This document shows positions 44,526 through 62,243 of a stretch of DNA of 64,000 nucleotides, in pieces. How positions within the stretch are numbered: position 1 is the stretch's first letter; the number at the start of each line of letters is the position of its first letter. A program made the position numbers and the translations under genes. Source of the DNA: Nitrospirota bacterium (GTDB lineage Bacteria > Nitrospirota > Thermodesulfovibrionia > Thermodesulfovibrionales > SM23-35); contig JBFMCL010000012.1 in assembly GCA_040754395.1 (NCBI GenBank), positions 1 to 64,000 of the forward strand, given 5' to 3'. Below the pieces are notes generated by a model. The model was not told the DNA's origin and did no database searches. It saw nothing but the letters and a program-made list of their open reading frames with translations.

Positions 44526-47312
44526 ATGCAAAAGAGAAAAAAACATATCACTTTTTTCCTTATTAACCTGCTTCTGACATGTTTTCTTTTATCTTCAGGC
44601 TATGCATTTGCGGACGTCATTATCGATAACGGACAGGCAGGCACATCCTATACCGGAACATGGGGAATTTCCGGGGGTACCCTGCCTTATGGCACAAACA
44701 GCCTCTGGTCGAGGGACGGGGCCACGTATACCTGGCAATTCTCTTCACAACCTGCAGGCACATATGAAGTGTACATGTGGTGGTCTGGCTACGCAACGAG
44801 AGCAACAAGCATAGCGGTAGACATCTACCACCGTGACGGGCAAAGCACCGTTACGGTAAATCAGCAGTTGAACGCAGGCCAGTGGAACAGCCTCGGGCAA
44901 TACTATTTTGACACAAGTGGAAGAGTAACAATTATTGCAGCCAATGGCTCCACAGTAAGCACCTGTGCTGATGCGGTACGATTTGCCCCGGTCTCAACGA
45001 ACTCTCCTCCCACCGCGTACATTGACTCAATAACTCCCAATCCGGCAAACCCCGGTCAGACCGTTTCATTCTCAGGGCATGGCACCGACTCCGACGGGAC
45101 GATCGCCGCATATCAGTGGAGTTCAAACATCAACGGTCTCCTCAGCACAGAGAGCGCATTCTCTTCCTCAACCCTCTCTGCAGGAACACATACGATCTCT
45201 TTCAGGGTTCAGGACAATGAGGGGGCATGGTCTGCACCAGTTGCCCAGACACTGCAGGTAGGCGCTCCTCCAGTCGAATACATCATAGACAATGGTGCTG
45301 CAGGCACCTCATTTACTGGCACATGGGCTATTTCAGGAGCTTCAAATCCTTACGCAATAGATTCGGTCTGGAGCCGCGACGGCACCACCTATACCTGGAC
45401 ATTCACTCCTGCGGTTTCAGGAAACTACGACCTCTCCATGTGGTGGACAGTCTGGCCTTCGCGGAGCACAGCCGTGCCTGTTGACATCACCTTCTACGGC
45501 GGAACTTCACGAGTGGTTATCAACCAGCAGCTCAACGGCGGCAAATGGAACCTGCTCGGCAACTTCTCCTTCCTCGCCGGCCAGAGCTACACCGTAAGAA
45601 TAACCTCGCAGCCCGGGCCGTCAAGTACCTGCGCAGATGCGGTCAAATTCTCGCGGGTATCTGACCTGAATGCCCCTCCTGTGGCCACCATCGATTCTGT
45701 CACTCCCAACCCTGCCCTTCCCGGGGAAACCGTAACCTTCACCGGGTCAGGCTCGGATACCGACGGTACGATCACCGGCTACAGCTGGCGCTCCAGCAGA
45801 GACGGCGTAATCGGCACCGCTGCGTCTTTCAGCACCTCGGCCCTCTCAGAGGGAATACACACCATATATTTCAAGGTTCAGGACAACAACGGCGTATGGT
45901 CGCCGGAAATAAGCCATACTCTGAATATCGGCAATCAGGTCTCAAATACCGAACATATATATTTCTGTCTAACATTCTTTGGAGCAAATGACAAAGCCTT
46001 GTTGATTGCAACCTTGCAGGATGTTGGCGCGGTTCAGCAGGGTAATGTCTGGACTTATACAAATAGTGCACTGGGGAAAGATTATGTAATTCATATTGTG
46101 GAAGATATAGAAACCATGAAGCAGGCATTATATACGGAAAATGCGCATGTGATTGTAAAAGGACATTCCAACTACGGACTGGGTGGGGTTTTTATCCCGG
46201 ATTACGCATATGAACATCAAGTGCTCAACAATATTCGGTATATCGATGATGACCTGATTTTTAATTACTCCTCTCCATGGATTTCCGTAAATGTTGCAAG
46301 CTGCATCATAAGTCACGCATTCCCAAACTGGTGGCCAATTCTGCAGGATGGCACAAACGGCATCATGCCATATGATTTTGGGGATCCAAGGGGGAATCCT
46401 CCTTACAATTACTATTTAACCTATCAAATACCCGGCGATCCGAATATTTACAAAGTCGAGACCGTACGAAACAGCGCACGCGAGCGGTTTCCGGATTCAG
46501 GAGTGCCTGCATGGTATTCACCTGACGGCTCAAGCCCGAATCCGTCAAATCCTTCACACCGTCAGTACTATATCACGAACCCTGATAATTCCTTCTTATC
46601 CGCTGGCAGATGGCTTTGGACTAATAATTCTTATGCCGGCAGTCTGACCGGATTCTATGGCTTTCATTATTGCCGCATTAACGCAGGTTCGGGCAGCAGC
46701 CAGGCTTCATGGCGCTTTTCCATACCTGTCAGCGGCAGTTACAATGTATCTGCATGGTGGCCGTCATCTCCGCTTAACACATCTCAAGCCAAGTATACTG
46801 TGAACCATGCCACCGGCAGCACGTTAGTGATGCAAAATCAGCAGGTTAATGGTAGCGTTTGGAACAACCTCGGAACCTTTTCTTTCAATACCGGTGAGTA
46901 TTCAGTAGTACTAACTGACCAATCCGGCTCCGGGCAAATTGTTGCTGATGCAATCCGGGTAACAAATTCTGCAAATCCAAGCATTGATATCACGGTAGAT
47001 AACTCTTTTTGCCCTAAATCACATTATTATAAAAAGTCGATCGTCTTCAGGAGACAGCTTGAAATAGAACCGGAAAAACTGAAATATAAGCGGATGCTGT
47101 ATGATGCATGCACGACAGGAAGCTACTACCTTGAGGCGTTTCAGAGAGGAACCATGTTCTTCACGGTTATTGGCTCGAGGACATATGGGAGCTATAAATA
47201 TCTCAAGGCGTATCTGGAGGGAAAAAGTGATCAGGAGATATGGACAATACTGCAGGCATACGACCCGGTATACGATTATTATTACTTCGATAAATCGCCG
47301 TCAGAACAGTAA
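44526..47312 (+). CDS. Secreted golvesin/PKD protein with split caspase-like domain
   Basis: This 928-residue protein has a signal peptide (1-29). Two golvesin-type beta domains (VIIDNGQAGTSYTG and YIIDNGAAGTSFTG) each precede a PKD-like domain (TPNPANPGQTVSFSGHG, TPNPALPGETVTFTGSG). From about residue 475 a new alpha/beta domain begins: AHVIVKGHSNYGLGG carries H547, with the NVASCIISH strand further on. A third golvesin-like domain interrupts it. The sequence then resumes with LYDACTTGSYYL (C862) and IGSRTYGSYKYLKAYLEG. The His-then-Cys arrangement resembles caspase-like (clan CD) proteases, whose motifs are HG and DxCxSG. Protease activity is only inferred. The golvesin domains are probable carbohydrate or surface binding modules. 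GGGGGA precedes the ATG. Confidence 0.85.
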   Translation: MQKRKKHITFFLINLLLTCFLLSSGYAFADVIIDNGQAGTSYTGTWGISGGTLPYGTNSLWSRDGATYTWQFSSQPAGTYEVYMWWSGYATRATSIAVDIYHRDGQSTVTVNQQLNAGQWNSLGQYYFDTSGRVTIIAANGSTVSTCADAVRFAPVSTNSPPTAYIDSITPNPANPGQTVSFSGHGTDSDGTIAAYQWSSNINGLLSTESAFSSSTLSAGTHTISFRVQDNEGAWSAPVAQTLQVGAPPVEYIIDNGAAGTSFTGTWAISGASNPYAIDSVWSRDGTTYTWTFTPAVSGNYDLSMWWTVWPSRSTAVPVDITFYGGTSRVVINQQLNGGKWNLLGNFSFLAGQSYTVRITSQPGPSSTCADAVKFSRVSDLNAPPVATIDSVTPNPALPGETVTFTGSGSDTDGTITGYSWRSSRDGVIGTAASFSTSALSEGIHTIYFKVQDNNGVWSPEISHTLNIGNQVSNTEHIYFCLTFFGANDKALLIATLQDVGAVQQGNVWTYTNSALGKDYVIHIVEDIETMKQALYTENAHVIVKGHSNYGLGGVFIPDYAYEHQVLNNIRYIDDDLIFNYSSPWISVNVASCIISHAFPNWWPILQDGTNGIMPYDFGDPRGNPPYNYYLTYQIPGDPNIYKVETVRNSARERFPDSGVPAWYSPDGSSPNPSNPSHRQYYITNPDNSFLSAGRWLWTNNSYAGSLTGFYGFHYCRINAGSGSSQASWRFSIPVSGSYNVSAWWPSSPLNTSQAKYTVNHATGSTLVMQNQQVNGSVWNNLGTFSFNTGEYSVVLTDQSGSGQIVADAIRVTNSANPSIDITVDNSFCPKSHYYKKSIVFRRQLEIEPEKLKYKRMLYDACTTGSYYLEAFQRGTMFFTVIGSRTYGSYKYLKAYLEGKSDQEIWTILQAYDPVYDYYYFDKSPSEQ

Positions 47313-47371
47313 TATTATGTTAGGAAAATTCTTGATAACGTCAATTAATACAATTGCGGAGGGTTATGTAC

Positions 47372-48043
47372 ATGAACATTAAGAAAACATTGTTCGCATT
47401 ATTGTTCGTCGGGATATTTACTGCTGCACATGCTCAGGAGCCTGTAAGGCCTGACGTGTCCCGTATGTTCGATTTTGACAGGGAAGCAAAGATAAATCAT
47501 CTCAGCAATATCAGTGCGGAAGAAGCTTTCAACAATCTGACATCGCCAGACTTTATGCTAAACGATGATCTCCTTCACAAAGCAGTATTCAAAGCTTTTG
47601 AATTCAGAAAATCGGATGCGATTGCCATTGTTGTGCAGGCTCTGAGGACAGCGCAGCATCAGTCAGTGAAGAATACGCCGGAAACTGAGAACAGATTATA
47701 TATCTCAAGAAAATTTCTTGAAATCTTCCCTGAAGACACTACTGGAACACTGTTAAAATTATATGCCTCAGCCGATGCACCCACAAGGTCCAGAATTCTC
47801 TATGTGGCAGGCAATATGCCCGGCCAGCCCATCAGAGAACTTCTCATCAAAGCGCTCGACGATAAGACAACCTTTGAGAAAGAGAATCCGGAAATAGCCG
47901 GACTGCCTTTGCGCATTTGCGATGCGGCATATAATCAACTTGTAATTCGCTATAAGATTCAAAATGTTCTCAGGACAATTGGAAACGATTTGACAATCCA
48001 GACCAGAGATTACCATATAAATATCCTCAAAAAGTATTTGTAA
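47372..48043 (+). CDS. Exported helical-repeat protein, unknown function
   Basis: This 223-residue protein has a signal peptide (MNIKKTLFALLFVGIFTAAHA, cleaved after AHA). The mature part is helical, with HEAT-like repeat character (DLLHKAVFKAFEFRKSDAIAIVVQAL and GTLLKLYASADAPTRSRILYVAG). It is probably periplasmic. I do not recognise a named family. GGAGGG (47358-47363) is well spaced for ATG 47372; earlier in-frame starts lack this. It lies 59 bases after the golvesin gene, with a terminator behind it, so the two form a small unit that may act together outside the cytoplasm. Confidence 0.75.
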   Translation: MNIKKTLFALLFVGIFTAAHAQEPVRPDVSRMFDFDREAKINHLSNISAEEAFNNLTSPDFMLNDDLLHKAVFKAFEFRKSDAIAIVVQALRTAQHQSVKNTPETENRLYISRKFLEIFPEDTTGTLLKLYASADAPTRSRILYVAGNMPGQPIRELLIKALDDKTTFEKENPEIAGLPLRICDAAYNQLVIRYKIQNVLRTIGNDLTIQTRDYHINILKKYL

Positions 48044-48108: not shown

Positions 48109-49380
48109 ATGAAAAAGGTATTGATTATCGCTTTCTACTTTCCACCCTGCATAAACATGGGAGCCCAGAGACCATACAGGCTTGCAAAATATCTTTCCAG
48201 TAATGGATGGGAGCCAATAATTCTTACGAAAACACTTCCGGGAAAGCCTCCTGATGGAATTCGTATTATTGAAACCCCGTATAAGGATGTTATCGGAACC
48301 CTCAAGTCATCCTTCGGGTTTGACAGACAAAAGGGAATTCATGAACAAATGCATATTCAGGAGTCAAAAAATTACTCCCATTCAGCATGGAAAAGTAAAA
48401 TCATAAAAATTATGAGAGAAATAATTGCCTTTCCCGACGATTTCATCGGATGGCAAAAATTTGCGCTAGAATCGGCCTGTGAATTGCTTGATAATGTGCG
48501 AATTGATGCAATTATCAGTACTTCTTACCCAGTCACATCACATGTAATAGCATCGAAACTAAAAAGGAAATACCGTATCCCCTGGGTAGCCGATTTTCGG
48601 GATCTCTGGACACAAAATCATTACGTCAGGAAATACAGGTTGATTCATCTTGCCGAGAAATTCTTGGAGAAGAAAACACTCTCAGGGGCTGATCTGCTTG
48701 TGACGGTGCATCCTCTTACTGACATGCTAAGGGAAATGCACAGGGACAAGAATGCCTTATGCATTACCAACGGATATGATCCAGCCGATTATCCGGAGAC
48801 AGAGCTGCAGCTGTCCGGGAAATTTTCAATAACCTATACCGGAATACTCTATGCCGGGAAACGTGATCCGTCGATGCTTTTCAGGGTCATAGATCAATTA
48901 ATACAGGATCGCAAGATTGACAGAGACCGGTTAGAGATAAATTTCATCGGATGTTCTGAGAAGTGGCTGAGAGAGGAAGTGAAATCCTACGGGCTGGAAA
49001 AAATCGTCCGCATACAGGGGATGATCCCCAGGGAGGAAGCACTCAGGATTCAGAGAGAATCTCAGGTGCTGCTCATAATACGTTGGAATAACAAAAAGGA
49101 AGAACAGATTATACCGGGAAAATTATTTGAATATTTTGGTGCGAGAAGACCGATTCTTGCTATCGGGGCCGGAGGTGTTGTGCAAGACATTCTGGAAAAA
49201 ACCCAGACTGGCAGGTTCGCTGACAATGACAAGTCATTAAGTGATATCATTCTGCAATATTATCGTGAATATATGGGTGATGGTACGGTCAGTTATTCTG
49301 GCAATCAGACTGTTGTCGATTACACTTACCCTTCTATTGCACGCCAATATGCAGAAGTTTTGAATACGCTGCCATGTTAA
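48109..49380 (+). CDS. GT4-family glycosyltransferase
   Basis: This 423-residue GT-B enzyme starts VLIIAFYFPPCINMGAQRPYRLAKYL, a typical glycosyl transferase 4-like N-terminal domain. It includes IPWVADFRDLWTQN, which is diagnostic of this subgroup. The C-terminal half has the SITYTGILYAGKRDP strand and the donor-binding IPGKLFEYFGARRPILAIG with Glu. It acts at the inner membrane's cytosolic face. It follows a terminator by only 12 bases, so its expression would depend on read-through or an unseen promoter. It overlaps the polymerase/ligase gene by seven bases. Confidence 0.92.
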   Translation: MKKVLIIAFYFPPCINMGAQRPYRLAKYLSSNGWEPIILTKTLPGKPPDGIRIIETPYKDVIGTLKSSFGFDRQKGIHEQMHIQESKNYSHSAWKSKIIKIMREIIAFPDDFIGWQKFALESACELLDNVRIDAIISTSYPVTSHVIASKLKRKYRIPWVADFRDLWTQNHYVRKYRLIHLAEKFLEKKTLSGADLLVTVHPLTDMLREMHRDKNALCITNGYDPADYPETELQLSGKFSITYTGILYAGKRDPSMLFRVIDQLIQDRKIDRDRLEINFIGCSEKWLREEVKSYGLEKIVRIQGMIPREEALRIQRESQVLLIIRWNNKKEEQIIPGKLFEYFGARRPILAIGAGGVVQDILEKTQTGRFADNDKSLSDIILQYYREYMGDGTVSYSGNQTVVDYTYPSIARQYAEVLNTLPC

Positions 49381-50747
49381 TTGAATCTCTGAGTTTGTAT
49401 AAAAAATATTCGTCGAAAAAATTACTCTGGATACTGTCTGGAATATCCATTGCGGCATTTGTGTCATATTCTATTGCGAATGCCAAATTGATTTATCTTG
49501 GCGTTTTATTTGCGCCTTTGTTCATTTACCTGTCGATCTCCAAGCCATTCATTTTTCCGTTCGGGGCATATGTATTCCTTCTCCCATTCGATTCAGTGCT
49601 TGCCATTTCAGGTTCCGGGGGAGCAACGATCACAAAACTGCTTGGAATTATTACAATATTTGTTTTTTTGACCAAATCGCTGATTGAAAAGAAATTTGAA
49701 AAACCTGACAGAGCAACATTGTACTGGATACTCTTCATCATATATGCGCTCACATCTTTCTTCTGGGCAATTGTTCCGGAGGTGGTCCAGGCAAGATTCA
49801 TGACGGCAATCGGGTTACTGCTGTTGTATCTTGTCGTAGCTTCATACGGAGTACAGAAAAATGATTTCGCACTCATCAAATATTTTCTTTTGGCAGGTGG
49901 GGTCTCTGCTGCTCTCATTACAATATATAAGTTCAGAACCTACGGGATGGTATATGATACGACAGATTATGTCCGGACATCCCTTACAATGGGAGATCGG
50001 GCTTCGGAGCTCAATAAATTTGCGTTCAGCCTGTTGCTGTCCGTCTCAATAAGCATTGAATTGCTCCTTAATGAAAAGAAAAAATGGCTGAAAATACTTC
50101 TTTTGTCGGGATTATCTGTCATTATTCTCTGCCTGCTCCTGAACGGTTCGCGTGGTGGCCTGATCGGGGTAGGTGTCATATTTATTTCCTATATTCTATC
50201 GCAAAAGAAGCGATTGTCCATATGGGCTTTGGTACTTTGCATGGCGGTGCTGCTCGTTTCTCTCAGCCCCAATTATTTTACGAAAAGGTGGGATCAGGCG
50301 GTCGAAACCGGTGGCTCCGGAAGGTTGATAATATGGAGCACAGGGCTGGCTGCTGCAGACAAATACTGGACGGTCGGGGCAGGGCTCGACAATTTCCCCT
50401 ATGTATACAACGAGTTCGGAAGTTTTACACCTTACAGCACGAAGATGGGCCGAGGCGCCCACAATATCTATCTGAGCACATTTATTGAACTTGGCATCAT
50501 CGGATTGTTACTTTTGTTACTGGGAATGATAACTCATTACCGGGCCATACGCACCTACGATCAGAGCGCCAGCGCACAGATGCTGAAGGCGGCGTTCTGG
50601 GCGATGCTTGTCTCATGTTTCTTCCTTGATGCGATATGGACAAAGACATTCTGGATGCTTTGGATTCTGATAATGATGTACAGAAATGTTGTGGATAAGG
50701 AACACCTCATAAATCATCTGATCCTGTCCGGCAAGATCAGGCAATGA
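49374..50747 (+). CDS. O-antigen polymerase/ligase (Wzy/WaaL-type)
   Basis: This 457-residue integral membrane protein has 11 or so hydrophobic helices. The conserved Wzy_C-type region LLNGSRGGLIGVGVIFIS and the periplasmic-loop end RGAHNIYLSTFIELGIIGLLLLL are clear. Such proteins polymerise repeat units or ligate chains in the periplasm, and sequence alone cannot separate the two. A polymerase would imply a Wzx flippase, but none is seen in the window. The ABC exporters could instead go with a ligase role. Its ATG overlaps the preceding glycosyltransferase stop. Confidence 0.88.
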   Translation: MLIESLSLYKKYSSKKLLWILSGISIAAFVSYSIANAKLIYLGVLFAPLFIYLSISKPFIFPFGAYVFLLPFDSVLAISGSGGATITKLLGIITIFVFLTKSLIEKKFEKPDRATLYWILFIIYALTSFFWAIVPEVVQARFMTAIGLLLLYLVVASYGVQKNDFALIKYFLLAGGVSAALITIYKFRTYGMVYDTTDYVRTSLTMGDRASELNKFAFSLLLSVSISIELLLNEKKKWLKILLLSGLSVIILCLLLNGSRGGLIGVGVIFISYILSQKKRLSIWALVLCMAVLLVSLSPNYFTKRWDQAVETGGSGRLIIWSTGLAAADKYWTVGAGLDNFPYVYNEFGSFTPYSTKMGRGAHNIYLSTFIELGIIGLLLLLLGMITHYRAIRTYDQSASAQMLKAAFWAMLVSCFFLDAIWTKTFWMLWILIMMYRNVVDKEHLINHLILSGKIRQ

Positions 50748-50773: not shown

Positions 50774-52237
50774 ATGCACCAACATAATCTCCATCCTCCG
50801 ACCTCTTTTTCTGAACAGGGACAGATGCTCAGTTCGTTTGATACGCTTCCTGACGATATGCAAAAGCGTATTGTACAGTCAATTATCATAAATGACAGGA
50901 TGAGCATGGCCGGGCACGAGCTTGGGAGGCTTCATATTATGCTGACCCGTTCACTCTGGCGTTTCAGAAAAAAAATATCAGGCAATCAAATGAACCGCTT
51001 TAAGACGTTATTAGAAATTCTGGCCAGAGCAGCTCAAAGCGGCCCGGCTCATATGCTATATGCCCTGTACCGTCTCAAAAGAAGCTGCCGGGATAATCTT
51101 CTGTCGGATTCAACAATGCAATCTATCGTTGATGCCCGTGGAAAGGATATCAAAGACTATGCGGTCTGCTTTGCCCGGCATATCCCTCAGCTTGAAGCAT
51201 ATCGGGGATTCTGGCATGATCACGCCCGCAATAACTCGTATGGGGTTATCCTTGGGATAGACCTTATTCCGTCTCAGGAAGGCTGCTGGTTCATTGAAAG
51301 TAATCTCAACTTTGGGATGAGCACCACCCGTTCTTCCTTGTATGATACAGATCCATTCGTACAGAATCTTCTCAGATTCACAACAGAAAAGGGATATGGC
51401 AACCTCATGTTTGTCAATAATACCCATGCAAATATGAACAGACGCATGGCTGCTCAGCTTGAGAAAGAAGCCCGGCGCAATAATGTCCAACTGAGTATTG
51501 TCGAAGATGCATATATTCCAGACGCACAGTATGGGCAAAGTTTTGGAATCCCCTCTCTCAAAACGGAAGATACCTTAGTGGTACGTACAAAATTTTACCG
51601 CACCAGTCTCGATTATCTGCTGCAGAACAAACTCGCAAGCAGCAGGGCATTAAGAATCTATCAGCAGAATTCTCCTGAACCCGCCCTTCTGCTCCCGCGA
51701 ACGGAAGCTTCCCCCATTATCAGCAGGAACTTCCTGGATGAACCATTTCCCAATATGGTGATGAAATATCCCGGACATGATGAAGGCAAGGGAATTCTGT
51801 TTCTGAAAGCATCATCAGCAGAACATGCAGCCGAACTTTTAATGCAATCGGGAGAGTCATACCGCCGAAAAGGTTTTATAAACAGGATATACTCTGCAGT
51901 TGAAAACCAGAAGCCAGTATTCCAGCCATACATCCGATCTCATCTTCTTGAAGGAAGAAGACTTTATAAGGTACGCGCGCATATATTACTGGCACCCACC
52001 GGCATTTGCTTTCTCTCAGCCCATCGTGTCACCGCCCGGCACTCCGTACCCCACCACCTGCCATTGGGAATAGTGCATGACTCAAGACCATATCTGGTAA
52101 ACCTTGCTACCAGTTCTGCATATGAAATACTTCCTCCGGATGAGGAAGTCGACGTGAAGAATGCTGCCACGGCTGTAGCAAGGGGGCTGTCATGGGCATT
52201 GTCTTACGGATTTGATATTTATTCTGAAGAACACTGA
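50774..52237 (+). CDS. Putative ATP-grasp-like ligase
   Basis: This 487-residue soluble protein is not firmly recognised. A central segment GVILGIDLIPSQEGCWFIESNLNFGM looks like the substrate/metal loop of ATP-grasp or glutathione-synthetase-like enzymes (acid-x-N-x-N). Later PNMVMKYPGHDEGKGILFLKA resembles the nucleotide-binding lysine strand and flexible loop. The order suggests a permuted or divergent ATP-grasp fold. Such enzymes make amide or peptide bonds with ATP. The next gene, an asparagine-synthetase homologue, starts 15 bases later; the pair probably acts together. Start ATG 50774 follows GGGG at a suitable distance. Confidence 0.6.
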   Translation: MHQHNLHPPTSFSEQGQMLSSFDTLPDDMQKRIVQSIIINDRMSMAGHELGRLHIMLTRSLWRFRKKISGNQMNRFKTLLEILARAAQSGPAHMLYALYRLKRSCRDNLLSDSTMQSIVDARGKDIKDYAVCFARHIPQLEAYRGFWHDHARNNSYGVILGIDLIPSQEGCWFIESNLNFGMSTTRSSLYDTDPFVQNLLRFTTEKGYGNLMFVNNTHANMNRRMAAQLEKEARRNNVQLSIVEDAYIPDAQYGQSFGIPSLKTEDTLVVRTKFYRTSLDYLLQNKLASSRALRIYQQNSPEPALLLPRTEASPIISRNFLDEPFPNMVMKYPGHDEGKGILFLKASSAEHAAELLMQSGESYRRKGFINRIYSAVENQKPVFQPYIRSHLLEGRRLYKVRAHILLAPTGICFLSAHRVTARHSVPHHLPLGIVHDSRPYLVNLATSSAYEILPPDEEVDVKNAATAVARGLSWALSYGFDIYSEEH

Positions 52238-52251
52238 AACCTGCGAATACA

Positions 52252-54114
52252 TTGCATACTTCATTCCGATCATCTTCGACCACTCCTTATAACTGGGAAA
52301 TACATCCGGCAAGTCATCTGACCGGGTGGATGGCAATAAAAGGTAACACGCCCCCTGCACAGTTGAAAGAAATTCTGCAGGTAGGGCTCAATTCCTTCAT
52401 GGGTGATTATGGCACAAAAAAGACCATAATAGTAAAGGATCATTTTGTATTCGGCTTTATTGTTCCTGCATCCCCGTTTCCTTTGACAACATGGTCATAT
52501 TTTGAAGATGAGGAAGGCTGTTGCTTCATTGATGGTGTCTTTTATGACAAGTATCTTTACCATCAACCGGTTGATGGTGAAGATGTTCTTCTTGCAAAAC
52601 ACATAATAGATAATTTCAGACGCATGAATGTCAAAGCGATCGAGGAACTTAACGGTTCTTTCAGAGGTTTTATATATGATTTCAGGAATACGCACCTGAC
52701 AACATTCATAGACCGTCTTGGAACGAAGATTCTCTACTGGTCGCGGGAAGGAAACAACCTCATTGTGACCACAAATCTTGCGAGTTTTTCAAAACTGAAA
52801 AATCTTTCACTCGATGAAATCGCAGCATTTCAGTTCCTTACGGTCGGCTTTCCCATCGGCAACAGGACACTGCTGAAAGACATACAGATTCATACCCCGG
52901 GTATGACCAACAGTTTCAGGGATTCCTCCGAGGAAACCCGTCGATATTGGAATATTCCGCATCGTATGCAGGGCATCTCTCTGAATGCCTGCGTTGAAAT
53001 GATTATGGAATCAGTCGAGGATCATGTTGAACGCGTCTACAATAAATCTCAGGTCAAACTCGGTCTTGCGCTATCAGGAGGTCATGATTCGAGGGTAATA
53101 CTTAATGCTCTTGTATCCAGAAAAGTGCCATTCGTTCCTGTGCTTTGGAGAGATAATAACTTTAATGACAGAATTGCGCTAAACTTGTGTTCATTACTCA
53201 ATAAGGAACCAATTATTGCTGACGACGTTGACGTCAATGCACTTGATGACATTCAAAAAAATATCTTTTTGTATTCAGACGGGCATTATCTGAATTCTTT
53301 CGGTTTCATACGTTTGGGAAAACTTTGTTATGATCGTCACATACCGAGTTTGCTTATCGGATTCAGCGGCGATAAAATAAGCGGTTCTCTAACATATCCT
53401 GACCCGGCATACCTGAAGAATATCAGAGAGCTTGCACAATACACCCTCAACAATCAGATGGAGCTCTTTTCTTTTGACCAGGCCCAATCCCTCTTATTGA
53501 CTTCTGATACTAGACTGACGGATGTTACGTTTTCAGAGTGGGAAGACAGCTTTGCCAAAATCACTCCCCGTGAACATTTGTCTGACATTTCCATATTGCA
53601 GGGATTTGCGAATCGGAATCACAAGCGAGTCCGGTTAGCTATGCTACCGGCCGAACAGTATGTGCAAGATCTTTTTCCCTATCTGGACAGTAAGGTGCTG
53701 AATTCCTATTTCAGCCTGCCCTTTGATTTCCTGAAACATCAGAAGGCGCACTGTTTTGCTGGATTCCGGAGAGTCAGGGATTTCAGAAAATATCCGGCAA
53801 GTAATTACCCTATTTCTCTTGCACAGGAGGCTCTTGTACCCAAATTTCTCTATTTTCTGAGACTCCTGAAGTTAAAGGGACAAAGATTATCAACATCGAT
53901 AAGACCACAAAAATACAGGGGAGTCTGGAATCAATTACATGAAGAAATATTGGATGAAATAGTCCAGTCGCCCCTGTTTGATTCCGGATTGCTACGAAGA
54001 ATGTATACTGAAAAAAGTATATATCCGGCGGAACTGTATAAGCTCCATACGCTTGTCAGATTTTACGATTTCTATGTCTGTGGAAATCAAAGCAAGATGT
54101 GGCAAGCATTATAG
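52252..54114 (+). CDS. Asparagine-synthetase-like protein with degenerate glutaminase domain
   Basis: This 620-residue AsnB homologue has an N-terminal Ntn-type domain (to about 200, with [10 protein letters not shown]...). It lacks the N-terminal catalytic cysteine of real glutamine amidotransferases, since the frame opens MHTSFRSS. The C-terminal ATP-pyrophosphatase domain has the PP-loop [13 protein letters not shown] near residue 277. It would activate a carboxylate as an acyl-adenylate and join it to an amine other than glutamine-derived ammonia, as beta-lactam synthetase does. A TTG codon at 52252 is the apparent start. Its neighbours suggest a glycan or its substituent as substrate, which is inference. 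Confidence 0.8.
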
Positions 54115-54142: not shown

Positions 54143-54649
54143 ATGCGAAAACTTATCGCTTACGTTTGTTACCTCTTCTATAATCTCGGCCCACGATGGC
54201 TTCCGAATTCCGATCCTTATATATTCCGGTGGTGTAAATGGATCAGATATGTTCTCGGAAAAGGGATCATTATGAAATGCGGTAAAAATGTGAACATACA
54301 GAATCGTGCACGTTTCGGTCACAATCTATCGGTCGGGGACAATTCCGGGCTAGGTGAAAATTGCCGGGTCGGCTCAGGCACAATCATCGGGAATAACGTC
54401 ATGATGGGAGCTGATGTCATCATTGTCACGCAGAACCATAAATATACCCGGGAAACCTTCGAGGGATTCATAAAAAAACCGGTGATTATTGAGGACAACG
54501 TATGGATCGGCTACCGTGTGATTATTTTGCCCGGGGTACGTGTCGGAAAAAATGCCATTATCGGTGCAGGGGCTGTGGTTACAAAAGACGTTCTACCCTA
54601 TTCTATTGTAGGCGGCGTTCCTGCAAAAGTGATTAAAATGCGTGAATAA
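54143..54649 (+). CDS. Hexapeptide-repeat acyltransferase
   Basis: This 168-residue protein has a short hydrophobic N-terminal helix ([13 protein letters not shown]) and then left-handed beta-helix repeats ([20 protein letters not shown] onward). The characteristic C-terminal block is [26 protein letters not shown]. It belongs to the sugar O-acetyltransferase group. The frame is open from 53978, but that part overlaps the AsnB-like gene by 137 bases in another frame. ATG 54143 restores a normal family start and is preferred. The next gene's ATG follows its stop by one base. Confidence 0.88.
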
Positions 54650-54650
54650 C

Positions 54651-55871
54651 ATGAAAGTGCTTGTCATTTCATACATGTTTCCCTGCAAAAGACATCCGAT
54701 ATCCGGTATTTTTATTGCGAATTTATTGAAAGAACTGGCCACCAAACTGGATGAATTGGTCGTCATCACTCCTCGGCCATATATTCCCAAATTTCTGTTA
54801 AAATTCAAAAAAGACTGGGACAAGTGGTTTATTGATCCACTTTTTTCTAAAGAAGGTTCAATTGAGATCATCAGACCTTATGTGTTGAATCTCAAAGGAG
54901 TATCTTACGACGGGGTTAATGGTATTTTAACGCAATACTCCTTATTACACTTGGTAAAAAATCTTAGTATAAAAAAGCAATTTGACCTCATTTTAGGCTA
55001 TAACATGATTCCCGAAGGTATCACAGTTGTAAGATTGGCAAATAAGTTGAATTTACCCGTTGCTTTTTGGGCTATCGGATCTGATGTCAATGCATATTCG
55101 CATCATAATAAAATAAATTATTTCCTGTCAAAAAAATCCATTGAGAATTCCGATCTGGTGATTACCGAAAGCAAGGATCTTGAAATGAAAGTTCGTTCAT
55201 TTACTCAAAAATCAATAAACGTAAAAACTTTTTATAAAGGTATCCATATCGAGGCATTTCAAAATCTCCCTGAAAGACATATAATTATCAATAAACTTTC
55301 TCTTGATCCTCAAAAAAAATACCTGTTATTTGTCGGAAGAATTTCTCGTGATAAAGGCATTTATGATATCGCTGCTGCTTTTGCGAATATTGCGGGTAAA
55401 TATCCTCACTGTGACTTAATAATGATTGGTGAAGATATAGAAAAAGAAAATATAATGATGACATTGAGAGAAAATGGGTTACAGGATCGAGTTCAATTCA
55501 GAGGCATAGTATCTCACAGAGATGTCGCACATTATATGAAAATTGCGGAACTCCTTGTTCTCCCTACTTGGGCTGAAGGGCTGCCGAATGTTGTTATGGA
55601 GGCAATGGCCATTGGCCTTCCGGTTGTAGCAAGTAATGTCGATGGTATTCCTGAAGTCCTGCAAAATGAAGTTACCGGCCTTTCAGTTCCTGCAAGAAAT
55701 GTCGATAAATTGACTGATGCCATAACGCGGATGCTTGATGACAGTGCATTGAGGGAAACTTGCACTGCGAATGCAAAAAAACTGGTATATGAAAATTTCG
55801 ACGTGAAAAAAAATGTCAATTTGCTCTATGACATGCTTGTTGAGATCAAAAACAACCATTCACCTCACTGA
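54651..55871 (+). CDS. GT4-family glycosyltransferase
   Basis: This 406-residue GT-B enzyme begins VLVISYMFPCKRHPISGIF. It has VAFWAIGSDVNAYSHHN in the first half and the donor domain with YLLFVGRISRDKGIYDIAAAF. The E-x7-E region is LLVLPTWAEGLPNVVMEAMAIGLPVVAS. All elements of an active GT4 are present. ATG 54651 is preferred to the GTG at 54642, which overlaps the acyltransferase stop. Base composition is visibly AT-richer than the genes at 32-44 kb, which may point to recent acquisition. Confidence 0.94.
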   Translation: MKVLVISYMFPCKRHPISGIFIANLLKELATKLDELVVITPRPYIPKFLLKFKKDWDKWFIDPLFSKEGSIEIIRPYVLNLKGVSYDGVNGILTQYSLLHLVKNLSIKKQFDLILGYNMIPEGITVVRLANKLNLPVAFWAIGSDVNAYSHHNKINYFLSKKSIENSDLVITESKDLEMKVRSFTQKSINVKTFYKGIHIEAFQNLPERHIIINKLSLDPQKKYLLFVGRISRDKGIYDIAAAFANIAGKYPHCDLIMIGEDIEKENIMMTLRENGLQDRVQFRGIVSHRDVAHYMKIAELLVLPTWAEGLPNVVMEAMAIGLPVVASNVDGIPEVLQNEVTGLSVPARNVDKLTDAITRMLDDSALRETCTANAKKLVYENFDVKKNVNLLYDMLVEIKNNHSPH

Positions 55872-55904: not shown

Positions 55905-57026
55905 ATGAATAAAAAGGTCTGTATCATTCATAAGGTTGACACCCTGGATCCGCGTTCTTTCTATAAGGAAGGACGTTCACTTTCCAGGGCCGGATTTGAA
56001 GTGGTAATTATGGGAACTTTCCGGAACAACATGACAATTGACGGCATCAGAATTCTCGGGTTCGGTCCAGCGAGAAACCGCTTTGCCCGTTTTCTTGCCA
56101 CAAATTATCGTATTTTTCTGAGTGCGGTGAAAGAGAGGGCAGCGGTATATCATTTCCATGACATCGATTTCATTCCATGGGCAATCCTGCTGAAGGCATT
56201 TACCAGAGCCAAAGTCATATATGACATTCATGAAGCATATCCTGAATATATGTTACTGAAAACATATATCCCGAAATATACGAGACGCTTGCTTTCTTCC
56301 TTCATATTCATATTGGAGCATTCTGCTGTGAAATTCTTCGACGGTATCATTCCCAATGATAATTATATTGCCGAGAGCTTCCGGCATAAAAATAACATCA
56401 CTGTCTTCAACTTTCCCACACTGGATTTTTTTAAAGATGGCAACAGGATTCCGTGGAAAGAAAGAAAATATGATCTTTTCTATCACGGCACTTTGCCACA
56501 ATACCATTTTGAAAGAATGATGAATATCGCAGAAAAGCTTACTACAGACAATATTCCGAACAAATGGGGGATTGTTGCCAAAGACGGACCGGTCAAGGAA
56601 TGGGCGAGAGCGGCATTGATGAAGAGAAAATTAACGTCGAATTTCGACTTTTTGCCCTATACCGATTACCTGAATATATATGATTATTTAATGAATGCAC
56701 GGATTGGCATCATTCCTCTCCCGCCATATGAGAAATTTATGAAGAATATTCCATTGAAACTGTTTGAATTCATGGGATGTAAACTTCCGGTCGTATTGTC
56801 TGACCTTCCACCTTCCCGGCAATTCATTATAGGCGAGGATTGCGCGATCCCTGTCGAGCCGGACAATGTCGGGAAATATGCAGACGCGATTGTTTTTCTG
56901 CTGGACAACCCGGTCAGAGCTGAGGAGATGGGAATGAAAGGACAATCCCTTGTGTTGAATAAATATAATTGGGATAAGGAAGAAGAGAAACTCCTGAAGC
57001 TCTACAATGAACTGATATACACATGA
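55905..57026 (+). CDS. GT4-like glycosyltransferase
   Basis: This 373-residue GT-B protein begins KVCIIHKVDTLDPRSFYKEGRSL. The HFHDIDFIPWAILLKAF and VIYDIHEAYPEY segments are typical of one GT4 subgroup. The donor domain shows YDLFYHGTLPQYHFERM and LKLFEFMGCKLPVVLSDLPP, with the Glu of LFEFMG. It is AT-rich like its upstream neighbour. A GGGGG stretch lies close to the ATG. It overlaps the YdjC-like gene by four bases (ATGA). Confidence 0.88.
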   Translation: MNKKVCIIHKVDTLDPRSFYKEGRSLSRAGFEVVIMGTFRNNMTIDGIRILGFGPARNRFARFLATNYRIFLSAVKERAAVYHFHDIDFIPWAILLKAFTRAKVIYDIHEAYPEYMLLKTYIPKYTRRLLSSFIFILEHSAVKFFDGIIPNDNYIAESFRHKNNITVFNFPTLDFFKDGNRIPWKERKYDLFYHGTLPQYHFERMMNIAEKLTTDNIPNKWGIVAKDGPVKEWARAALMKRKLTSNFDFLPYTDYLNIYDYLMNARIGIIPLPPYEKFMKNIPLKLFEFMGCKLPVVLSDLPPSRQFIIGEDCAIPVEPDNVGKYADAIVFLLDNPVRAEEMGMKGQSLVLNKYNWDKEEEKLLKLYNELIYT

Positions 57027-57877
57027 ATCGCAAAAGTACACGATCTTCTCCCAGGGTTATCATCAATGCTGACGATTTCGGCATTACCGATGGAGTAAAC
57101 AAAGCCATATTCCGGCTTGCAGGGGCCGGAATCATCACAAGTACTTCCGTTATGTGCAATATGCCCTATTATACCGATATCACTGAACTCAGAGATACGG
57201 TAGGGGTAGGAATACATTTGAACCTAACTCTCGCGAAACCGGTTGCAGAGCCCGCCAAAATCCCAACACTCATCAATAAAAATGGCAATTTTCATCCCTT
57301 ACCGGAACTGATAAGACGAATGAACCTCCGGTCTGTATCCAAACAGGAGGTGGCTTTTGAACTTCGAGCTCAAATCAGCCGTCTTCTTGATATGGGGATA
57401 CAGCCGGATCATATCAACTCTCACGAGTCATTTCTCAAATATCCTTTTTTTAAAAACATAGGTGTGGAAATAGCTCAGGAATTTGGCATAAAATCATTCC
57501 GGTCCTTTCTGCAGAGGAAATTTGACTTTTCCCGCCTGCTCAGTCCCAGAAAAACATTGATATCTCTCTACCTCTTTGTGCAGAAAAAAGGACTCAGACG
57601 ATCCGGCTTTAATCTGGCTGACAGATATGATTCATTAATATCTTTCGGTCTTGATCATGATACGGCCTTAAGGAAGCTTCAACAGATATTTAAGGATTTG
57701 CCACAGGGAATTCTTGAAATCGTTGTGCATCCCGGATATGTCGACGAGAACAGCAGCTTTTTGGGTGAATATGTATTCGAAAGGGAAATTGAGTTAAATG
57801 CGCTTATGAGTGATTCCTTCAAAAGCATTTTGAATGCTTCAGGTGTAATTTTGATCAGTTTCTCTTCGATCCATTGA
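57023..57877 (+). CDS. ChbG/HpnK (YdjC-like) deacetylase
   Basis: This 284-residue protein belongs to the YdjC/ChbG group of metal-dependent carbohydrate deacetylases. The opening RVIINADDFGITDGVNKAI carries the metal-binding Asp pair. GIHLNLTLAKPV and INSHESFLKYP supply histidines, and IVVHPGYVDE is the late His motif. It would remove an N-acetyl group from a sugar or glycolipid. The second His site is INSHESF, not the usual DGHQH form, so one ligand may differ. It sits directly before a CapK-like adenylating enzyme, suggesting deacetylation followed by a new acyl group. Confidence 0.85.
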   Translation: MNRKSTRSSPRVIINADDFGITDGVNKAIFRLAGAGIITSTSVMCNMPYYTDITELRDTVGVGIHLNLTLAKPVAEPAKIPTLINKNGNFHPLPELIRRMNLRSVSKQEVAFELRAQISRLLDMGIQPDHINSHESFLKYPFFKNIGVEIAQEFGIKSFRSFLQRKFDFSRLLSPRKTLISLYLFVQKKGLRRSGFNLADRYDSLISFGLDHDTALRKLQQIFKDLPQGILEIVVHPGYVDENSSFLGEYVFEREIELNALMSDSFKSILNASGVILISFSSIH

Positions 57878-57880
57878 GCA

Positions 57881-59305
57881 ATGCTACGCGATTGGAAAAT
57901 GGAATTATACTGGCGGTTCCCGGTATTCCTCCAGGAAAAGGTGCTGAGCATATATGCAAAGCATCTGGACAGAATCTACTATGGTCACGAATATCATACG
58001 TGGAAACAATGGCTGACAGATTTTAGAAATCTTCCTTTTCCCGAGATTGAATCGTGGCAGAATGATCGGGTGCGTTATATTCTTCAATCCATTAGCAGCA
58101 AAGTACCATTCTACAGGGAAAGTTACAAGCATCATAACACGGATATCGTGCAGTCTAAAGATAATCTCTATCTGCTGCCCTTACTGGAAAAGCAGTCGAT
58201 CAGGCAGAATGAGATGAATTTTCTCGCCAATGGTCTCACGCCCAAATCGCTCTGGCTGGAGAAAACCAGTGGGACAACCGGGACAGCGCTCAGAATATAT
58301 TGGCCGATGTCGATGGTTGCACAATGGTGGGCCATTATAGAACTCATGGTCAGACATGTTGCAGGTGTATCGCAGGAAATTCCACGTGCAATGATGGGGG
58401 GGCGTCCTATTGTAAAAGGCGAAACATGCAAGCCTCCGTACTGGCGTTATAACAAAAACTGGAAGCAACTGTATTTGTCCAGTTATCATATTTCAAAAAA
58501 ATCTTCGCAGGCTTATATTGACGCATTAAGAAAATATGAGAGTCAATGGATAACAGGCTACGGCTCGGCGATTGCGGCGCTGGCTGAAAACGCTCTGGAA
58601 AGGGGTCTGGAGCCGTATCCTCTCAAAGCGGTTATAGTGAGCGGTGACACACTTTTGCCTGGAATGCGCCACAGTATCGAAAAATATTTTCAATGCAGAT
58701 GCTTCGACCATTATGGACAGTGCGAAGGAGTGGCAATGGCGATGGAATGCCCAAGCGGTCGCAAACATGTCATTCCGATGATCGGGATTATAGAAATTCT
58801 GAGGCAAGACGGATCATATTGCCAACCCGGAGAGATTGGAGAAGTTGTCGCAACAGGCCTTTTAAATGACGCAATGCCGTTAATCCGTTACCGCGTAGGA
58901 GATTACGCAGCATGGGCAGAGGATCAACATTGTTCATGTGGGAATCCCAACCCGATAATTACTGATTTAACAGGACGCGTGGATGACTATCTTATCACCG
59001 CCGACGGCAGAAAAGTTGGCCGGCTGTCTGCATTCAGGAGAAGTCCTTCCATTCATTCTGCGCAGCTTGTTCAGGATAAACCAGGGCATGCCTTCCTTCT
59101 TGTGCGTCCCGGATCAAAGTACAAGTCTGCAGACGCCGAAGCTGTCCGAGCCGACATTACGGAAAGAGTGGGGAAATTCGCTATAGATATAATTGAGGTT
59201 CAGGAAATTCCAAAAACCCCTCAGGGTAAAGCTATTTTGGTTGTTCGGCTTGATGAGCGTATTGAGATGAGAAGTAATTATTCAATATTGTTTAATATCA
59301 ATTGA
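57881..59305 (+). CDS. CapK / phenylacetate-CoA-ligase-like adenylating enzyme
   Basis: This 474-residue protein is an ANL-superfamily member of the CapK/PaaK type, common in capsule loci. The ATP-binding P-loop is LEKTSGTTGTALRIY (about residue 127). ITGYGSAIAALAE and YGQCEGVAMAMEC form the middle motifs, and PLIRYRVGDYA precedes the hinge DLTGRVDDYLI. It would activate a carboxylic acid as an adenylate and pass it on. The substrate is unknown, and no acyl carrier protein is adjacent. ATG 57881 follows the deacetylase stop by three bases. A short four-Cys-like motif (HCSCGNPNP) lies before the hinge. Confidence 0.88.
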   Translation: MLRDWKMELYWRFPVFLQEKVLSIYAKHLDRIYYGHEYHTWKQWLTDFRNLPFPEIESWQNDRVRYILQSISSKVPFYRESYKHHNTDIVQSKDNLYLLPLLEKQSIRQNEMNFLANGLTPKSLWLEKTSGTTGTALRIYWPMSMVAQWWAIIELMVRHVAGVSQEIPRAMMGGRPIVKGETCKPPYWRYNKNWKQLYLSSYHISKKSSQAYIDALRKYESQWITGYGSAIAALAENALERGLEPYPLKAVIVSGDTLLPGMRHSIEKYFQCRCFDHYGQCEGVAMAMECPSGRKHVIPMIGIIEILRQDGSYCQPGEIGEVVATGLLNDAMPLIRYRVGDYAAWAEDQHCSCGNPNPIITDLTGRVDDYLITADGRKVGRLSAFRRSPSIHSAQLVQDKPGHAFLLVRPGSKYKSADAEAVRADITERVGKFAIDIIEVQEIPKTPQGKAILVVRLDERIEMRSNYSILFNIN

Positions 59306-59318
59306 TTACGGCACTTTT

Positions 59319-60356
59319 ATGGATATCCCTTTAGTATCTATCGTCATTCCATGCAGAAATGAATCAAGGTTTATCGGCAAATGTCTTGACTCGATTCTCG
59401 CAAACGATTACCCGAAGGATAAATTGGATATTCTCGTGATAGATGGGATGAGTGAAGATGCTACCAAATCCGCGTTAAAGACTTATATGGAAAAGTTCTC
59501 CTTTATCAGGGTGTTCGATAACCACCGGAAAATTGTCCCATCGGCTATGAATATCGGCATCAGACATGCATTGGGCAGAATAATCATCAGAATGGATGCC
59601 CACAATATATATAACAGTGATTATATTTCAAAAAGTGTTCGATATCTGAAGGAATACGATGTCGATAATGTAGGCGGCATCTGGATTACCTTACCCGGTG
59701 CAGATACTGTTATTGCCCGATCAATCGCTTTGGCACTCACACACCCTTTTGGCGCAGGCAACGCATACTACAGATTAGGCGTAAAAAAACCTGAACTTGT
59801 AGACACTGTTCCTTTCGGATGCTACAAGAAAGAGGTATTTGACAGAATCGGCCTTTTTGACGAGGATCTGATCCGGAATCAGGACGATGAATTCAATGCA
59901 AGACTCATCGCGAACGGGGGGAAGATACTTCTTGCTCCCGATATAATCTCTTTCTATCATGCACGGGATTCTCTCCGAAAAATTGCAAAAATGTTTTTTC
60001 AATATGGGTACTTTAAGCCTCTGGCGGCAAAAAAAATTGGGAAAATTTTCACCCTGAGGCAGTTGGTACCACCTGCTTTTATGCTGAGCCTGATTACTTT
60101 CGGTGCACTCTCATTTGTGCATATATTTTTCTTTTATGTGTTCTTGTCGATTTTTCTTATCCATCTGATTTGCAACATATTCTTTTCCGCATCAATCGCA
60201 ACCAAAAAAGGCATAGTTTATCTGATAGTTCTTCCATTTGTGTTTCTTGCGATCCATTTGAGTTATGGATGGGGGTACCTCAAAGGAATTATGGATTTCA
60301 TCCTATTGAAAAAACACCGTGCGAACAGGCTGAAGGACATGTCCCTGTCAAGGTAA
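59319..60356 (+). CDS. ExoA-like membrane GT2 glycosyltransferase
   Basis: This 345-residue GT-A enzyme closely resembles the succinoglycan ExoA type. It starts LVSIVIPCRNESRFIGKCLDSIL, with VIDGMSEDAT, the metal site IIRMDAHNIY and the late NQDDEFNARL. The C-terminal third contains two or three TM helices (LVPPAFMLSLITFGALSFVHIFFFYVF and IVYLIVLPFVFLAIHL by segment), anchoring it in the inner membrane. It begins 13 bases after the CapK-like gene. The donor is unknown. Confidence 0.93.
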   Translation: MDIPLVSIVIPCRNESRFIGKCLDSILANDYPKDKLDILVIDGMSEDATKSALKTYMEKFSFIRVFDNHRKIVPSAMNIGIRHALGRIIIRMDAHNIYNSDYISKSVRYLKEYDVDNVGGIWITLPGADTVIARSIALALTHPFGAGNAYYRLGVKKPELVDTVPFGCYKKEVFDRIGLFDEDLIRNQDDEFNARLIANGGKILLAPDIISFYHARDSLRKIAKMFFQYGYFKPLAAKKIGKIFTLRQLVPPAFMLSLITFGALSFVHIFFFYVFLSIFLIHLICNIFFSASIATKKGIVYLIVLPFVFLAIHLSYGWGYLKGIMDFILLKKHRANRLKDMSLSR

Positions 60357-61166: not shown

Positions 61167-62243
61167 ATGAAAAAGAAATACCATAGGATGAATGCTCTGA
61201 AAGTATGTTATGCAGTGTTTTTTGCTCTATTAATAATACTTCCGGGCAAAGAAATATACGCTGAGCAATTTTTTAAAACTCAGAATACCTGGCATGAAAA
61301 AGTACCTTCGAATCCAATCCTTAATAAAGATTCTGCAAACATTGTCAAAGATATTCTCTTGAATGCATCGACAATGTATGTTAATCAGGGACAGGATTGG
61401 AGTGTTCCCGTCTGCTATGCAGCAGCGAATACCCCAATTATTGCAGTTGAGGTTAAGAGCACACTACATGGTGAGTATATTCGTTCTCAGGGATGGGATA
61501 AGGTTCCTATTCCTCAAGGTTGTATGCCAGCAGGCAATTCTGCCACTTGTGCTGGGCAATATCGGGATGGACATATGGTTGTCATTAGCAGCGATAATAA
61601 ATGGTCATGGGAATTTTTTGGGGCTTCTTATTGCAATGGGAAATGGTCAACAAAAACCATGAGAAAATGGGATTTGCAGGGGAATGGAATAAATTATCCA
61701 TTTGATAATCGCAGTTCCCAAAGAGCAGCATCGGTCCCTCTTTTACATGGTCTACTGACCTATCAAGAAGTTTCTACAGATACAATCAATCATGCACTGG
61801 CTTTTTCCTATAATGCCGAAACTGATAAAGATCATATGACTATCTATCCTAGCGGAAATTATAGGAAGGGCATAAGCGCAAGAATCTATGCAATGAAACT
61901 GGGGGAACGATTACAATTAGATCCTTCTGTTGATTGCAATTCACTGAATTTGACTGTTTTTGGAAAAAGAATTTGTAAGGCTTTGCAGGCATATGGAATG
62001 ATTTTTGTTGAAAATACCGGGCCTGGATATAATTATGTTTTCGCAGAAATCTCGAGTTCCTGGGGTACTCAAATTGGAGACATAAGTGCCATACCACTCA
62101 ATAAACTCAGAGTTGTGGAACCTGTGTGCAGTGATTGTGCAGTATGCCCAAATTGTGTCACACCCACCCCGGCGCCACCCCCACCACCACCCCCTGATCC
62201 TGCACCTGTACCTCCGCCAGGGTCTCCCCAGTTATTGCCCTAA
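61167..62243 (+). CDS. Secreted protein of unknown function with polyproline tail
   Basis: This 358-residue exported protein has an N-terminal signal peptide (to about residue 33, after YAEQ-like residues). The conserved core includes NQGQDWSVPVCYA, SSDNKWSWEFFGA, a DTINHALAF motif, a LDPSVDCNSL segment and YGMIFVENTGPGYN. I know this pattern from a broad family of secreted bacterial proteins with an 'IDHAL' motif, but its function is not established. The tail holds CSDCAVCPNCV and then a run of seven prolines. AAGGAGGG is well placed before the ATG. A strong terminator follows. It is somewhat AT-rich. Confidence 0.82.
   Translation: MKKKYHRMNALKVCYAVFFALLIILPGKEIYAEQFFKTQNTWHEKVPSNPILNKDSANIVKDILLNASTMYVNQGQDWSVPVCYAAANTPIIAVEVKSTLHGEYIRSQGWDKVPIPQGCMPAGNSATCAGQYRDGHMVVISSDNKWSWEFFGASYCNGKWSTKTMRKWDLQGNGINYPFDNRSSQRAASVPLLHGLLTYQEVSTDTINHALAFSYNAETDKDHMTIYPSGNYRKGISARIYAMKLGERLQLDPSVDCNSLNLTVFGKRICKALQAYGMIFVENTGPGYNYVFAEISSSWGTQIGDISAIPLNKLRVVEPVCSDCAVCPNCVTPTPAPPPPPPPDPAPVPPPGSPQLLP

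Follow-up and report, generated by a model that had tools for sequence, protein, structure and literature searches.

What reaction could be performed by two neighbouring genes of a surface-polysaccharide locus, one of which (product P0001) appears to encode an ATP-grasp enzyme and the other (product P0002) a relative of asparagine synthetase AsnB that lacks the residue needed for glutamine hydrolysis? We addressed this question for one such pair in a 64,000-nucleotide stretch of a Nitrospirota genome (referred to as the window), by comparing both proteins, their neighbours and their relatives in other genomes with known systems.

Genomic context and conservation of the gene pair

The reading frames of P0001 and P0002 are both intact and co-directional (Table 1), and they are separated by a gap of 14 bases; the adjacency described in an earlier note on this DNA therefore stands, although its figure of 15 bases does not. 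That note also placed the pair inside a polysaccharide locus, which agrees with our scan of the window genes. Genes encoding Wza, Wzz/Wzc-type and Bac_transf proteins and an ABC-2/Wzt exporter surround the pair, together with many glycosyltransferases, a Wzy/O-antigen-ligase family protein, sugar dehydratases and epimerases, and the wider locus additionally encodes two aminotransferases and a PIG-L deacetylase. Genes for uronic-acid synthesis were not found among the window genes scanned, and a uronic acid was dropped as the candidate acceptor because the UDP-sugar dehydrogenase family is absent among these genes.

Table 1. Window coordinates of the gene pair and of the conserved block around it. 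G014 is the relative genome described in the text.
Feature	Coordinates	Strand	Description	Basis or conservation
GT4-like glycosyltransferase	48109..49380	+		conserved in G014
Wzy_C / O-antigen-ligase family membrane protein	49374..50747	+	best NCBIfam match PEP_O_lig_1, below cut-off	conserved in G014
P0001	50774..52237	+	487 aa; probable circularly permuted ATP-grasp ligase	ORF, orthologue, distant relative, hhalign
P0002	52252..54114	+	620 aa; AsnB family, without N-terminal Cys; PP-loop SGGHDSR; synthetase motif GFSGDKISG	
PP-loop-bearing stretch of P0002	53041..53100	+	includes SGGHDSR, residues 275-281	sequence
Hexapeptide-repeat acyltransferase	54143..54649	+		conserved in G014
TuaC-like glycosyltransferase	54642..55871	+		conserved in G014
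GT4-like glycosyltransferase	55905..57026	+		conserved in G014
YdjC-like carbohydrate deacetylase	57023..57877	+	possible free-amine source	conserved in G014
PaaK / DVU_1553-like adenylate-forming ligase	57881..59305	+		conserved in G014
GT2 glycosyltransferase	59319..60356	+	final gene of the conserved block	

The pair is also present in a second genus, represented by the metagenome-assembled genome Kmv42 (JACUUX010000013.1; G014), in which the orthologues of P0001 and P0002 are adjacent and 65 bases apart, with best-match identities of 54% and 53%, respectively. Gene order in G014 is the same as in the window, running from the GT4 glycosyltransferase and the ligase family gene through P0001, P0002, the hexapeptide acyltransferase and the TuaC-like glycosyltransferase to the second GT4, the YdjC deacetylase, the PaaK-like ligase and the GT2 glycosyltransferase, so that about ten genes are syntenic in both genomes. 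Because this entire block is common to both, the co-conservation of P0001 and P0002 reflects a conserved module in which the pair itself is not singled out. P0002-type genes were identified in two of 395 Nitrospirota genomes (the window genome and G014), and P0001-type genes in three, the third being a relative in G337 with 26% identity that is located at a contig edge. Searches for further P0001 relatives returned none from viral contigs or plasmids and only that of Kmv42 from the genome contigs searched.

Several other proteins encoded in the window are of note. A DUF4910/DUF2172/HTH_47 protein at 22194-23504 belongs to the CA_C2195 family, which has been proposed to act in the synthesis of modified polysaccharides, perhaps through peptide or glutamine transacylation to an amino sugar (PMC4000134). 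A protein of 1115 aa with LamG, GDSL lipase and carboxypeptidase-regulatory domains (32005-35352) is encoded between the export genes and the glycosyltransferases, and a large secreted-looking protein at 44526-47312, also in the glycan locus, contains three Golvesin_C stretches and PKD domains; at the equivalent position G014 encodes a secreted-looking protein of nearly twice the length (L004:4546-9822). The genes at 61167-62243, 30639-31886 and 47354-48043 have no Pfam match, and the first and third of these have positional counterparts in G014.

P0002 is an AsnB relative without glutaminase features

P0002 aligns with AsnB proteins along its length. As the earlier note had observed, its PP-loop SGGHDSR is intact (residues 275-281, after an Ntn-like domain) and its N-terminal Cys is missing: the position of the Ntn nucleophile is occupied by Thr24 (H-L-T-G-W-M), and no Cys takes this position from either plausible start, TTG at 52252 or ATG at 52330. 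The glutamine-pocket motif NGE(I/F)YN of Cys-bearing relatives is replaced by IDGVFYD. These sequence comparisons confirm P0002 as an AsnB-superfamily protein that has lost features used for glutamine hydrolysis. The synthetase site is altered as well. In P0002 the GDGGDE motif of canonical synthetases reads GFSGDK, with the acidic residue missing, and the conserved Lys of R-x-K before Gly-Phe is likewise missing, the Lys column differing between the two orthologues. SGGxDS and Asp374 are kept, and the aspartate of GDK is present in both orthologues.

Profile searches placed P0002 at a distance from all curated families. The only cut-off passed was that of Pfam GATase_7 (25.6 bits vs 25), and the NCBIfam matches to asn_synth_AEB (6e-15) and the XrtA amidotransferase (3e-15) were far below cut-off and covered residues 118-288 only. 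The closest curated profiles are the amidotransferases TIGR03108, TIGR01536 and TIGR03104. An AsnB-family search of the genome that carries the window, which is 99.96% complete, returned a single match, taken as P0002. P0002 is thus apparently the only AsnB-family protein of this organism, and asparagine is presumably made another way.

Thr24 is located within a conserved HPxxHLTGWM stretch about 23 residues in, and both orthologues have a TTG start codon (window 52252-52330). Thr24 was considered as a Thr-type Ntn nucleophile and rejected, since this would require self-cleavage of some 23 residues, of which no evidence was found.

Among 56 AsnB-like proteins compared, SGGxDSR occurs in 18 of the 19 that lack the Cys and in none of the 37 that bear it. 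The single exception, L131, is cut by a contig end, and without it the association of Cys loss with SGGxDSR is 18/18 vs 0/37 (Fisher 9e-14, uncorrected for kinship). The Cys-less SGGxDSR proteins form one group in the tree, with a split support of 99/99 and long branches, and P0002 and its orthologue are on their own very long branch (length 4.3). Taken together, the missing Cys, the SGGxDSR motif and the tree grouping show that P0002 is a divergent member of this Cys-less class, whose NCBI name is asparagine synthase-related. Like P0002, the proteins from haloarchaeal plasmids, G007 and G016 combine SGGxDSR with the absence of the N-terminal Cys, and several of them are encoded in glycan loci. 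On the haloarchaeal plasmids L101, L104 and L144, a Cys-less AsnB gene recurs in a three-gene set, with genes for an alkaline phosphatase family protein and a GNAT protein after it, and in Halorussus vallis (L146:2501-6498) two tandem asparagine synthase-related genes overlap by four bases.

P0001 is a probable circularly permuted ATP-grasp enzyme

Even with the threshold set at E<=10, searches of P0001 against Pfam and NCBIfam gave no match of relevance, and no score exceeded the cut-off for PF14403 (CP_ATPgrasp_2) or PF03738 (GSP_synth), both of which had no matches in the genome that carries the window. The three known members of the P0001 family share the invariant residues D163, E175-x-N177, R271, K331, D336-x-G338, Q384 and K399-x-R401, and the P0001 stretch GIDLIPSQEGCWFIESNLNFGM...R is similar to the motif GIDLVR-x-x-DGRYYVLEDN-x-x-x-PSG...R of COG2308, a family of circularly permuted ATP-grasp proteins. 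When a profile of the three members was compared by hhalign with 30 COG2308 proteins, residues 154-275 were matched with a score of 42.3 (E 1.4e-4, probability 53), a match carried mainly by one 109-column stretch and by only three query sequences. Scores of the controls reached at most 24.0 for 150 column-shuffled profiles and 20.4 for reversed alignments and twelve unrelated window proteins.

The order of motifs in P0001 is that of permuted ATP-grasp proteins, with D-x11-E-x-N first and a K-x-x-x-x-D-x-G loop late. The candidate ATP-binding loop (K331...D-E-G-K-G) follows the putative metal motif, as expected for the permuted form; metal- and ATP-binding roles for D163, E175, N177, K331, D336 and G338 are assigned by analogy. 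As in COG2308 and PF14403 proteins, the D-(11-12)-E-x-N motif opens the ATP-grasp unit, a Rossmann-like stretch comes next and a Lys/Gly-rich loop lies near the C-terminus, but the distance from ExN to the Lys is 156 residues in P0001 vs 205-209 in COG2308. Genes of COG2308 and PF14403 occur in operons with Alpha-E, transglutaminase and Anbu (PMC5666114). The neighbourhood of P0001 is unlike these operons, and Alpha-E and transglutaminase were not seen nearby.

Since the profile-profile match is well above the shuffled and unrelated controls and the motif order agrees with it, we consider P0001 likely to be an ATP-grasp enzyme, and it probably represents a new, rearranged (circularly permuted) branch. 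The earlier description of P0001 as a divergent ATP-grasp protein would accordingly hold for the superfamily, whereas mere divergence gives way to the permuted form. AlphaFold models of the whole protein and of its core, built from two sequences with the G337 relative left out, had pLDDT values of 34.7 and 38.9, too low for use, and a Foldseek search with the low-pLDDT core model gave TM values of about 0.2. Other families were also considered. Glutathionylspermidine synthetase was rejected as the closest family, its local alignment being in register in the second half but scoring within the shuffles; the score against the D-Ala-D-Ala ligase (Ddl) profile was not above the shuffles; and matches to PDB profiles of ribosomal S18 were judged to be chance.

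Cys-less AsnB genes beside ATP-grasp genes in other genomes

The gene-neighbourhood search proposed in the earlier note recovered the pair side by side in a second genus, as described above, and Cys-less AsnB genes beside ATP-grasp genes elsewhere. In G016, a member of the Nitrospirota from the same family, a 308-aa ATP-grasp_3 protein (E 1e-8) is encoded directly upstream of a Cys-less SGGLDSR protein, and this pair adjoins ABC/Wzt genes of a polysaccharide locus. The pair is followed by a third gene (L098:7493-8848), whose product is PP-loop-like (FFSGGLDSF) and lacks any Pfam match. Two Haloterrigena plasmids each carry overlapping genes for a Cys-less SGGRDSR protein and a carboxylate-amine ligase of the ATP-grasp superfamily; Haloterrigena turkmenica, a cultured species whose genome is complete, has this pair on pHTUR02. 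By family match, neither of these ATP-grasp proteins resembles P0001, so that the association of an ATP-grasp with a Cys-less AsnB gene seems to have arisen on at least three occasions. The pairing is not obligatory, as G007 and most haloarchaeal loci have no ATP-grasp neighbour. Among the 25 commonest families in 38 neighbours of Cys-bearing AsnB genes there was no ATP-grasp, a comparison whose scope does not extend to single matches and from which no statistic was drawn.

Comparison with known systems

Enzymes such as beta-lactam synthetase and lasso cyclase have the AsnB fold without glutaminase and use acyl-adenylate chemistry with a nucleophile other than ammonia. The analogy with beta-lactam synthetase drawn in the earlier note is retained here for mechanism only, because the synthetase site of P0002 departs from that of asparagine synthetase (GFSGDK vs GDGGDE, no conserved R-x-K). 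Against the lasso cyclase profile P0002 scores 31 bits vs a cut-off of 525, and it differs further in its glycan context and its altered synthetase motif. Models of the XrtA/PEP-CTERM exopolysaccharide locus are the best NCBIfam matches for P0002 and for the products of the genes at 49374 and 48109, and match the ligase at 57881 weakly, but all scores in the window are far under the cut-offs. XrtA amidotransferases keep the Cys, and we know of no ATP-grasp member of that locus.

The statement of the earlier note that it was aware of no named pathway combining such genes is weakened by the synthesis of the osmolyte NAGGN, where Ngg links two glutamines to give a product that AsnO amidates (PMC8070244), though AsnO keeps its Cys. 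The genes asnO (TIGR03104) and ngg (TIGR03103) are adjacent, seven bases apart in Azospirillum, and the likeness is that a gene for an AsnB-family amidotransferase adjoins one for an ATP-grasp peptide ligase. In contrast to the pair described here, the NAGGN product is a soluble osmolyte and there is no glycan locus, and Ngg, unlike P0001, is a cyanophycin-synthetase-like ATP-grasp protein with a GNAT domain. P0002 scores 39.9 bits vs a cut-off of 570.1 for TIGR03104, and P0001 has no match to TIGR03103; judged by these profiles, P0001 and P0002 are not members of the NAGGN pathway.

In the synthesis of teichuronopeptide and O-antigen, ATP-grasp ligases are linked to a second ligase, and successive action of the two has been proposed (PMC4431377). 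An ATP-grasp aminoacyl ligase has been proposed for a DUF4910 glycan locus (PMC4000134), and the VPS polysaccharide of Vibrio carries a glycine amide on a uronic acid (PMC3901696).

Proposed function of the pair

We give an even chance to the reading that P0001 and P0002 constitute a two-ligase module that supplies the surface glycan of this locus with an amide-linked substituent. P0001 would couple a carboxylate to an amine by way of an acyl phosphate, and P0002 would form an acyl adenylate from a carboxylate at the PP-loop, the acyl group then going to an amine that is not ammonia derived from glutamine. The acceptor would likely be an amino sugar, because a YdjC deacetylase is present in the block, aminotransferases and a PIG-L deacetylase are encoded in the locus, and uronic-acid genes are missing among those scanned. 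The order of steps, the substrates and the attachment to the glycan are inferred. The adjacency and shared occurrence of the two genes in a syntenic block, the match and motif order of P0001, the loss of the Cys and the NGE motif from P0002, the pairings in G016 and Haloterrigena and the published precedents speak for this reading; the conservation of the entire block and the many Cys-less SGGxDSR proteins that have no ATP-grasp neighbour speak against it. The adenylation activity of P0002 is assumed here, as the protein has neither the acidic residue of GDGGDE nor the Lys that canonical synthetases conserve. A broader proposal, which we advance tentatively and consider doubtful, is that P0001 is the first member of a new family of circularly permuted ATP-grasp amide ligases that serve surface glycans specifically. 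Together with the Cys-less SGGxDSR AsnB class it would constitute an undescribed two-ligase pathway that places amino-acyl or peptidyl amides on polysaccharides of bacteria and archaea, and in different lineages non-homologous ATP-grasps would have taken the place of the ATP-grasp half.

AsnB enzymes with a disabled glutaminase use free ammonia, and P0002 could be an ammonia-dependent amidotransferase whose carboxylate substrate, either a sugar uronate or what P0001 produces, becomes a primary amide; P0001 would make the acid that P0002 amidates, a division of labour like that of Ngg and AsnO. That its closest curated profiles are amidotransferases, and that the NAGGN genes are likewise adjacent and of the same make-up, speaks for such an activity. 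We regard it as rather improbable given that the Cys is missing in all members of the class and the NGE pocket in P0002 as well, that the synthetase motif is altered and that no uronic-acid synthesis gene is among the window genes scanned.

That the synthetase site conserves neither its catalytic Lys nor its acidic residue would also be compatible with a degenerate or structural AsnB-like protein, or one acting solo, with P0001 alone being a ligase (or another enzyme) and the two genes being neighbours only through their shared glycan locus; relatives such as that in G007, which has no ATP-grasp neighbour, fit this explanation. The Ser-Gly-Gly-x-Asp-Ser PP-loop kept across the class, the GDK aspartate of both orthologues and the two further cases of a Cys-less AsnB gene beside an ATP-grasp gene of another family make it unlikely. 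Even less credence is given to P0002 being the ammonia-using asparagine synthetase of the cell, with P0001 unrelated to it. Although the single AsnB-family match in a nearly complete genome would suit this role, G014 encodes a Cys-bearing AsnB (locus L014) in addition to the P0002 orthologue, both genomes have the gene inside the glycan block, and 393 of the 395 Nitrospirota genomes lack it.

Several bacterial polysaccharides carry amide-linked amino acids, and, to our knowledge, most of the enzymes that attach these are unassigned. SGGxDSR without the Cys, sometimes together with an ATP-grasp gene, marks candidate amide-forming enzymes across bacteria and archaea. If the two-ligase reading is true, the circularly permuted ATP-grasp fold would also act in glycan modification, outside the known Alpha-E/transglutaminase operons.
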